A stretch of 44,860 nt of DNA, from assembly GCA_946186495.1 (NCBI GenBank), contig CAMHNQ010000021.1, positions 1 to 44,860 of the forward strand. The letters run 5' to 3'. Below, piece by piece: positions 12,937 to 38,215 of the stretch; positions within the stretch are counted from its first letter, which is position 1, and each line of letters begins with the position of its first letter. Both the position numbers and the translations under genes were made by a program. Below the pieces are notes generated by a model. That model did not search any database, was not told where the DNA came from, and saw only the letters and a program-made list of their open reading frames with translations. This DNA comes from an uncultured Bacteroidales bacterium (GTDB taxonomy: Bacteria > Bacteroidota > Bacteroidia > Bacteroidales > WCHB1-69).

Positions 12937-13413
12937 ATGAAACATATCACCGTTTCCGCCGCCATCATCCACGACTCCCAAAACCGCATCTTCGCCACCC
13001 AGCGGGGCAGCGGCGACTGGAAGGACTGGTGGGAGTTTCCCGGCGGCAAGATCGAACCCGGCGAGACGCCCGAGGAGGCCGTCCGCCGCGAAATATGGGA
13101 AGAATTGGACACCCGCATCACCGTCGGGGAACTGCTGCACACCGTCGAGTGGGACTACCCCAAGTTGGCCTGCGGCCCAAGCTGCTCACGCTCGGGAGAG
13201 TCAAAGCAAACTTTGCTCTCCCCTCGCTCAACCGCAGCTTTTCACCTCACCATGCACTGCTTCCTCTGCACCGTGGAGAGCGGCTCGCTCACCCTCCTCG
13301 AACACGAGGCCGCCCGCTGGCTCGCCCCGGACGAGCTCGATAGCGTGCAGTGGCTGCCCGCCGACTGGGAGGTGATCGAAAGGCTGAAACAACGATATAA
13401 TAATCAGCGTTAA
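12937..13413 (+). CDS. mutT: MutT-like Nudix hydrolase carrying an in-frame palindromic insert
   Basis: This 158-residue enzyme is expected to hydrolyse oxidised nucleotides such as 8-oxo-dGTP to the monophosphate, preventing mutations. The Nudix box is complete: GGKIEPGETPEEAVRREIWE and following EEL, with Gly and the REIWEEL metal-binding glutamates at about 34-55. Typical MutT proteins have 129-135 residues. Here 26 extra residues (encoded by 13162-13239) separate WDYP from FHLTMHCFLC, which are directly joined in family members. Removing them gives 132 residues. The inserted DNA is an imperfect palindrome. The insert lies in a surface loop between strands, so the enzyme may still fold. 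It starts three bases after the YqaE-like gene, probably in the same transcript. Confidence 0.85.
   Translation: MKHITVSAAIIHDSQNRIFATQRGSGDWKDWWEFPGGKIEPGETPEEAVRREIWEELDTRITVGELLHTVEWDYPKLACGPSCSRSGESKQTLLSPRSTAAFHLTMHCFLCTVESGSLTLLEHEAARWLAPDELDSVQWLPADWEVIERLKQRYNNQR
13179..13240. repeat. Imperfect palindromic element inside the Nudix gene
   Basis: AAGCTGC at 13179-13185 pairs with GCAGCTT at 13234-13240. The inner arms pair as GGGAGAG with CTCTCCC and CAAAG with CTTTG around a short AA-rich centre near 13209. The element lies within the 78-bp in-frame insertion 13162-13239. Size, palindromy and in-frame residence inside a gene recall Rickettsia palindromic elements, though the sequence is not claimed to be related. 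Confidence 0.7.
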
Positions 13414-13502
13414 TCTGCGGAATCTGCGGGAGAATAATATGCCCGCAGAACTCGCGGAAATACGCAGGCGGGATCTTATATTTAAAAGATTCAATGGGAT
13501 AA
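13391..13502. repeat. Dispersed intergenic repeat, copy 1, with GC hairpin
   Basis: About 110 bp here closely match 16051-16157, including the core from TAATCAGCGTTAATCTGCG to GATTCAATGGGATAA. Within it TCTGCGGG (13423-13430) pairs with CCCGCAGA (13442-13449) around an 11-base loop, giving a strong hairpin that could end transcription of the Nudix operon. The copy begins inside the last codons of the Nudix gene and ends just upstream of the promoter of the next gene. Confidence 0.8.
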
Positions 13503-30400: not shown

Positions 30401-30450
30401 AATGCCGTTGTGAAGATGCGATCAACGTATCCGCGCAACGGCATTCTTCT
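30401..30450 (+). terminator. Terminator-like hairpin after ftcD
   Basis: AATGCCGTTG (30401-30410) pairs perfectly with CAACGGCATT (30436-30445) across a 25-base loop, followed by TCTTCT. The long loop makes it an unusual terminator, but the position after ftcD fits. Confidence 0.6.
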
Positions 30451-30477
30451 ATTCACTGCTCACTATTCACTGTTCAC
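30450..30477. repeat. Heptanucleotide tandem repeat (4 units)
   Basis: TATTCAC TGCTCAC TATTCAC TGTTCAC, period seven, ends ten bases upstream of the -7 box at 30487. Two arrays of different consensus therefore flank one hairpin here. Confidence 0.8.
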
Positions 30478-32123: not shown

Positions 32124-32183
32124 AGCTTCAATAACCCATAACCTATAACCCATAACCTATAACCATTAAAATTGTATCTTTGC
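32124..32183. repeat. 60-bp direct repeat, left copy, containing heptads
   Basis: AGCTTCA, then five 7-mers of the form ATAACCN (32131-32165), then TTAAAATTGTATCTTTGC. The right copy at 38156-38215 is also exactly 60 bases with the same number of heptads, and 55 of 60 positions agree. The two flank the three AAA genes and one secreted gene. The end of the repeat includes the promoter of the first AAA gene. Confidence 0.85.
32175..32182 (+). promoter_or_regulatory. -7 box TATCTTTG of AAA copy A
   Basis: TATCTTTG is followed by a leader, CACTCTCCAAAAAACATTCG, and the ATG at 32207. The same leader with one base changed precedes copies B and C. Confidence 0.65.
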
Positions 32184-38155: not shown

Positions 38156-38215
38156 AGCTTCAATAACCAATAACCAATAACCAATAACCCATAACCATTA
38201 AAATCGTATCTTTGC
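38156..38215. repeat. 60-bp direct repeat, right copy, containing heptads
   Basis: AGCTTCA, then five 7-mers of the form ATAACCN (38163-38197), then TTAAAATCGTATCTTTGC. It is the partner of 32124-32183. Beyond it the leader still shares AACGTTCGG with the AAA leaders, so the promoter of the glycosyltransferase appears derived from, or exchanged with, that of the AAA genes. Confidence 0.85.
38207..38214 (+). promoter_or_regulatory. -7 box TATCTTTG of the glycosyltransferase
   Basis: TATCTTTG lies at the end of the right direct repeat. The following leader contains an inverted repeat CCGAAC (38219-38224) with GTTCGG (38230-38235). The ATG is at 38261. Confidence 0.6.

Follow-up and report, generated by a model that had tools for sequence, protein, structure and literature searches.

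A 75-bp palindromic insert in a mutT-like gene, probably one copy of a dispersed palindromic element of Bacteroidales

Introduction

Rickettsia and Wolbachia are the best-known hosts of protein-coding palindromes. A 2024 MITE review (PMC10969869) describes Rickettsia palindromic elements (RPEs) as being about 150 bp long and as forming in-frame fusions. Palindromes inside genes are also described, in PMC3733652, for GTAG- and CGTC-tagged REPs, which are mostly intergenic, with some lying entirely within open reading frames, many of these in genes of DNA synthesis and repair; CGTC repeats are reported there from Bacteroidetes among other phyla. PMC6006769 adds that tyrosine transposase genes of Bacteroidetes are flanked by atypical structures with copies elsewhere in the genome. 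Among the open-licence PMC papers listed in searches for a protein-coding palindromic element of Bacteroidales, none described one.

The window analysed here, a stretch of 44,860 nucleotides from an uncultured Bacteroidales bacterium, contains a mutT-like gene with a palindrome inserted in frame. The features of this locus are as follows, with the strand given where one was assigned.

12937-13413, + strand: mutT-like Nudix hydrolase gene, 158 aa (open reading frame, family models, comparison with 3gwy, AlphaFold)
13165-13239, can slide to 13167-13241: palindromic insert of 75 bp, 25 codons (75 extra columns in the alignment with the mutT of the relative G002; residues 77-101 absent from homologues)
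13167-13177: small terminal hairpin GGCC-TGC-GGCC at the 3' end of the element (- strand), followed by AA; helix 3 of the covariation test
13179-13185: outer stem, first arm AAGCTGC; helix 1 of the covariation test
13185-13195, - strand: conserved block CCGAGCGTGAG, required by the search pattern
13194-13200: inner stem, first arm GGGAGAG; helix 2 of the covariation test
13202-13215: apical hairpin CAAAG-CAAA-CTTTG, with stem CAAAG/CTTTG at 13202-13206 / 13211-13215; helix 2
13216-13222: inner stem, second arm CTCTCCC; helix 2 of the covariation test
13223-13231, - strand: conserved block TTGAGCGAG, of which the search pattern required all but one base
13234-13240: outer stem, second arm GCAGCTT; helix 1 of the covariation test

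Results

The insert and its host gene

The initial annotation had described a 78-bp in-frame palindrome at 13162-13239 of a MutT-like Nudix gene, adding 26 residues between WDYP and FHLTMHC. The host gene was identified correctly, as PF00293 matched the product of open reading frame 12937-13413 above its cut-off (E 9.4e-24), indicating a Nudix domain, and the best NCBIfam model, the MutT equivalog TIGR00586, scored 92.8 bits, just below its cut-off of 97.9. The in-frame palindrome, its position (between WDYPK and FHLTMHC) and both pairs of arms, AAGCTGC/GCAGCTT and GGGAGAG/CTCTCCC, were likewise found where they had been placed. The lengths had to be revised: alignment with the mutT of the nearest relative, G002, left exactly 75 inserted columns, and the extra part consists of 25 residues (77-101). 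A run of T makes the ends of the insert ambiguous by two bases.

Folding of the stretch as originally delimited was more stable than all 200 of 200 dinucleotide shuffles (-32.1 versus a mean of -22.35 kcal/mol, z -3.18). By the family model the element is oriented on the - strand, with the covariance match spanning 13161-13243 (-); the model was built from 69 copies including this one, which scored 88.2 bits and matches by construction, and it found no further match within the window at E up to 10. The invariance of the blocks CCGAGCGTGAG and TTGAGCGAG says little because the search pattern demanded them. A second imperfect inverted repeat, with 24-nt arms that are 71% complementary and a doubled AATCTGCGG, runs from the last bases of mutT into the sequence behind the gene (13407-13465). 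Elsewhere in the window, a 54-base tandem repeat (3.4 copies, 74% matches) lies at 712-895.

In E. coli, mutT is a mutation-avoidance gene. The solved Nudix/MutT chain 3gwy_A, from the same protein family as the window gene, is contiguous at the insertion site and has no insert. In the best AlphaFold model (20 aligned sequences; mean pLDDT 78.8, mostly confident outside the insert), residues 78-98 had pLDDT under 50 and lay between strands 61-74 and 102-113; the remaining four models had mean pLDDT of 45.4-59.6. Residues G37, E40, G42, E43, R51, E52, E55 and E56, which lie within the Nudix box, were invariant in the 20 aligned sequences. Between the window and G002, eight of 132 compared mutT codons had changed synonymously and three non-synonymously (junction codon omitted). 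Structure prediction, residue invariance and codon changes are together compatible with a predicted working enzyme that carries a floppy extra turn.

A dispersed family with a conserved layout

The family is dispersed in Bacteroidales and occurs in many genomes. Searching 100 genomes at the DNA level turned up related stretches that share one layout, while an exact 29-base stem search of genome_contigs gave no match, so a gapped pattern was adopted. Its strict form detected 12 copies, spread over 8 of 118 genomes (own included; reversed control 0), and in genome_contigs the pattern matched at least 120 stretches, those listed all having record titles of Prevotella, Prevotellaceae, Bacteroidaceae, Bacteroidales, Bacteroides, Muribaculaceae, Paraprevotella or Salinivirgaceae. 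Thirty genomes, namely the window's own and 29 holding such loci, had 1 to 13 copies each by the pattern (control 0). The covariance model found the element in 26 of the 60 genomes of the relatives search, own included, and at E up to 0.1 it counted at least 45 copies in G121, at least 10 in G139, at least 7 each in G125 and G130, at least 2 each in G002 and G134, and one in the window's genome. These copy numbers are lower bounds because only 76 (60-genome scan) or 150 (seven-genome scan) first-look candidates were scored per genome. In the window's genome, the mutT copy was the sole match at E up to 0.1 among the 150 of 769 first-look candidates scored, and the only copy found by the strict pattern. 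Phage or plasmid carriage of the element was not supported: the gapped pattern had 0 matches in viral_contigs, and the window copy as query had no match in plasmids at E 0.01.

Read in element orientation, the copies consist of an outer arm, TTGAGCGAG, inner stem, variable apical hairpin, inner stem, CCGAGCGTGAG, outer arm, a small hairpin and AA. The element hairpin covaries in its outer stem, inner stem and apical hairpin, and usually has the small terminal hairpin in addition. From 129 distinct copies, 113 formed the type-B set (the rest had longer cores, another following motif or insufficient flank), and 69 of these remained in alignment A1 after near-duplicates had been removed. The gapped search pattern fixed many A1 columns, whose invariance therefore means little; covariation rests on the free columns, of which the outer stem, inner pair 24-50, the apical hairpin and the small hairpin are informative, the short terminal hairpins being misaligned in A1. 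In the 69 copies, 81.6% of the cells of proposed pairs were standard versus 65.6% in shuffles, 247 cells had changed on both sides versus 85.1 +/- 6.9, and the covariation score was 0.396 versus 0.129 +/- 0.008 when shuffled and 0.150 at best when partners were slid. Two of the five measures stayed near the shuffles: pairs with changes on both sides (15 versus 13.9; 142 of 500 shuffles as high) and further pair types (48 versus 43.0; 16 of 500 as high). Four of the 23 pairs (columns 6-65, 22-52, 26-48 and 30-44) were unpaired in 32 to 55 of the 69 copies.

The element ends were also recognisable. On the left flank, A stood at -2 in 108 and at -1 in 106 of the 113 copies, with TGAA, GGAA and TCAA the commonest forms. 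In 76 of 113 copies the terminal hairpin had an arm of at least 4, versus about 15 expected from letter-shuffled tails; counting terminal hairpins of any arm length, 104 copies have one, and AA followed it in 76 of them. Copies thus mostly stand behind an AA and mostly stop within or just ahead of another. The AA at both element ends is compatible with a 2-bp duplication or with a fixed flank, and no long terminal repeats were seen. The idea that the element is designed to be open in many frames was not supported, as 2.71 of 6 frames were open versus 2.79 after shuffling (102 distinct copies).

Several repeats were seen around or beside the family. Related longer repeats of about 130 bp, roughly ATTCCCCTTCT ... 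GGGGTAGTAATAT, with the core hairpin in common, occur in the window's family (L039-L042, L045-L049). Many element copies in other genomes lie within short arrays such as GAGTGAAGAGTGAAG, and similar arrays of 7- or 14-base units stand in the window at 135-172, 987-1013, 30449-30477, 32131-32164 and 38161-38201. In the Muribaculaceae genome G130, the element sits in the middle of a longer repeat of about 280-300 bp with inverted ends like GGGAACTTCTATAAATT (by eye) at L070, L074, L094 and L110, the repeats of L070 and L094 being cut by the contig end. Some copies may travel as passengers of such a longer repeat, as in G130, as if a MITE had swallowed the element.

Copies inside other genes and their empty alleles

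Copies within open reading frames, with at least 20 codons on either side, made up 24 of 101 evaluable copies versus 439 of 610 random windows, a deficit that is partly built in because a gene-breaking copy counts as outside; the other 77 evaluable copies lay outside open reading frames by the same rule. A further 28 of the 129 copies were too close to a contig end for this test, and some of the 24 reading frames are probably not genes. By strand, the 24 copies split into 12 along the strand of the gene and 12 opposite, and 11 of the 12 copies read on the element's own strand used one frame, KAAIEREQS...SAEREQARPKVK. Hosts with the element in frame belong to at least nine unrelated protein families (seven by models, mutT, and the P-loop protein of L292):

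L123: aldo/keto reductase; PF00248 runs across the element, 318 residues for 290 positions
L135: N-acetylneuraminate lyase/DapA family lyase; family model across or on both sides of the element
L151: UmuC-like; PF11799, 142 residues for 109 positions
L128: iron alcohol dehydrogenase; PF25137, 223 residues for 192 positions
L120: methyltransferase; family model across or on both sides of the element
L142: DbpA-like helicase; family model across or on both sides of the element
L153: acyl-ACP thioesterase; family model across or on both sides of the element
L292: P-loop protein; no Pfam or NCBIfam match, the name being my own reading
L078: PurF, less certain; model on one side only
L285, L031: RHS proteins, less certain; model on one side only
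L159: less certain host; AAA-ATPase-like model before the element, nuclease-like model after it
L328: FMN reductase-like, less certain; my own reading

Empty alleles were seen for three hosts: mutT, the reductase of L123 (empty in G173, G177 and G193, 25 residues shorter) and the P-loop protein of L292 (empty in G008, G061 and the C69 homologue of the window's own genome, 24 residues shorter). In L314 and L315 (G168, G192), the L123 reductase site is occupied by an unrelated loop that exceeds the empty form by seven residues, which makes this site naturally variable. Diverged in-frame copies were noted in RHS-type proteins of genomes from two families (L285 618-1898 (-), G002; L031 1285-2559 (+), G076), apparently at one site, just before a GR(L/F)YDP stretch.

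The mutT site in relatives

When the protein was searched against 60 genomes, 23 of them, counting the own, had mutT matches at E up to 1e-15. The query aligned in two blocks, about 1-76 and 102-155, in 21 of the other 22, and these blocks abutted or overlapped by at most 3 bases; the 22nd, G076, had an N-terminal match only. At the DNA level, the junction was an empty site in 20 of 21 mutT loci, the exception being L191, which the script motif missed and whose blocks abut in the protein search. The element occupied the same place of mutT, on the same strand, in three further genomes, all MAGs: L059 (Tb.RUG.324), L118 (RGIG6784) and L137 (RUG13967). The mutT nearest to that of the window, from G002, is empty, 97% identical and paired with it at 100/98 support.

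A tree with the four filled mutT genes as one clade was rejected (p-AU 3.84e-45). Three changes are required to explain the filled/empty label on the mutT tree, two of them forced by starred branches, and 53 of 500 label shuffles needed as few. The tree has 26 rows, as 3 of 29 sources (L180, L191, L192) had no open reading frame under the script rule, and it carries warnings of long branches (G061, G139b, G015) and of odd letter make-up (RUG13967, G139b, RGIG6784, G061). Repeated insertion at a permissive or attractive site of mutT is the likely reading of these sequences because the four genes do not form one clade and the nearest relative is empty. In principle, a history of one gain followed by two losses would also account for the three label changes; an old single gain is disfavoured because a gain predating the genus needs many losses among its empty rows, and a single old gain with many losses is a remote prospect. 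Two RAYT-like genes adjoin mutT-like genes in G139: one lies directly after the element-bearing mutT (L118 5254-6405 (-) and 6409-6879 (-)), the other directly before another mutT-like gene without the element (L235 1324-2328 (+) and 2375-2821 (+)).

Discussion

The insert is probably a single representative of a non-autonomous palindromic element, about 75 bp long and dispersed in Bacteroidales, which would be mobile and translated when in frame; filled and empty sites point to the mobility, and the open frame to the translation. The initial annotation had arrived at a mobile small palindrome that can enter genes and be translated, and the sequences compared here support that proposal. Further copies turned up, as it anticipated, inside and outside reading frames of relatives, with none found elsewhere in the own genome, and mutT was found with and without the palindrome. 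A loop shared among MutT relatives without palindromic DNA was not what was seen, since the three loop-bearing MAGs have the palindromic DNA as well.

Copies of the element would move as single-stranded hairpins, which a trans-acting transposase would insert beside (R/C)AA targets. Damaging insertions would be purged, and the survivors would be those whose length is a multiple of three and which fell into a permissive turn, to be translated from then on as a disordered loop. The window copy would have entered a beta-hairpin turn of MutT, probably after its lineage split from the nearest sampled relative. Several findings count against this explanation: a single copy turned up in the own genome, the searches found no mobilising enzyme and RAYT-like genes were not enriched at element loci, and the recurrence of a similar element at one mutT site across four genomes exceeds what random insertion would predict. 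On the same side stand the covariation measures near the shuffles, the element frames that are no more open than after shuffling, the partly built-in deficit inside reading frames, the copies within a longer repeat in G130 and the low pLDDT of the other four AlphaFold models.

It is scarcely credible that the 25 extra residues form a loop normal for some MutT subfamily, with the palindrome arising by chance: three further mutT genes do have the loop, but the abutting blocks in nearly all other matching genomes, the empty nearest relative and the contiguous 3gwy chain speak against it, as does the same DNA in unrelated genes and outside open reading frames; a family-wide MutT loop is refuted by empty alleles and dispersed copies. 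An assembly artefact deserves equally little credence, for although the genome is a draft of 130 contigs and 92.33% complete, the insert recurs at the same mutT site in three records of other isolate series, and clean insertions are present in other genes of other genomes. Retention for an RNA role, as terminator, mRNA stabiliser or attenuator with the coding copies as by-products, is improbable. The many copies outside open reading frames would suit it, and the stems covary, though covariation cannot tell RNA from single-stranded DNA; the patchy distribution, the empty sites and the even strand split of the copies inside reading frames do not. A known RNA family was not supported, as an Rfam scan at E up to 0.1 of six element loci gave no match at the element (one sub-gathering match lay elsewhere in L118).

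More weight has to be given to recombination, the main rival to repeated insertion, in which the window mutT would have gained its element by gene conversion with a filled mutT such as that of Tb.RUG.324 and not by transposition; I consider this unlikely on balance but a real possibility. Among the 69 aligned copies, those nearest to the window's are L059 (92%) and L118 (88%), against a mean of 72% between copies, and both share its site and strand. Yet no donor-like tract stands beside the insert among the 12 substitutions between the mutT genes of the window and G002, position 13245 differs from all three possible donors, and in columns free of the pattern the L118 element is as near to non-mutT copies (0.83) as to mutT copies (0.81). 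That the four mutT genes are not one clade counts against whole-gene descent, not against a short conversion. A REP-type identity, with movement by a REP-associated tyrosine transposase (RAYT), is doubtful for the element. The hairpin architecture would fit; RAYT-like matches at E up to 1e-10 occurred in 43 of 62 genomes, and NF047646 matched all five RAYT-like proteins scanned, though at 33-43 bits where its cut-off is 80. In L118 the element-bearing mutT is directly followed by the start of a RAYT-like gene; L238 has such a gene close to the element, and L273 a fragment of one. Of the 29 element genomes, 9 nevertheless have no RAYT-like match at E 1e-10, the consensus ends of A1 showed neither a GTAG nor a CGTC tag by eye, and a RAYT-like gene lay in 1 of the 120 listed element loci where about 0.8 was expected, so that RAYT as mobiliser is not supported by proximity, such genes being no nearer than chance. 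Together, PF01797 in 14 genomes, a profile made from 8 RAYT-like proteins and run on 62 genomes, and a scan of the 120 loci (859,189 bases) yielded one neighbour; the expectation is a hand count based on 80 matches, with split ones entering twice, across 29 genomes that total about 89.7 Mb, and the E limits differed (1e-10 for genomes, 1e-8 for loci).

With a mobile element as the preferred reading, its repeated use of one mutT site is the most unexpected part. A bolder version, tentative and rather unlikely as a whole, is that self-spreading hairpins throughout Bacteroidales recurrently enter one and the same permissive turn of a given protein (mutT, in two or three apparent events; RHS proteins of two families), with locally targeted transposition continually adding 25-residue disordered loops to working proteins. 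Because filled and empty alleles exist in close relatives, the mode of movement and the effect of the 25-residue insert on the enzyme are testable. Annotators may meet the KAAIEREQS... peptide in unrelated proteins, where it should be recognised as an insert.

Comparison with known systems

The element resembles several known systems. With the Porphyromonas gingivalis MITEs (PMC4596501 and PMC5771137) it shares being a small non-autonomous repeat in the same order; no long terminal inverted repeats of its own were seen, whereas the larger repeat around it in G130 has such ends. The enterobacterial RU-type repeats, as outlined in PMC2759123, are likewise small mobile sequences with open frames found inside and between genes, and are set apart by description at 127, 168 and 103 bp and by their hosts. 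GTAG and CGTC REPs are similarly palindromic, mostly intergenic and sometimes inside open reading frames, but they measure 20-40 bp and carry an unpaired tag, whereas the element is longer and has two hairpins, with no tag seen. The closest likeness in mode of action, which the initial annotation had already drawn and which fits by analogy, is to Rickettsia palindromic elements and Wolbachia palindromic repeats: these too are dispersed and lie in frame in unrelated genes. They differ in size and host, RPEs being about 150 bp and from Rickettsia, the element about 75 bp and from gut Bacteroidales. I therefore file it as a protein-coding palindromic element as a kind, not as an RPE or a tagged REP: a distinct hairpin family that appears to enter genes in frame across several groups of gut Bacteroidales, and that would act in these gut bacteria much as the Rickettsia palindromic elements do.
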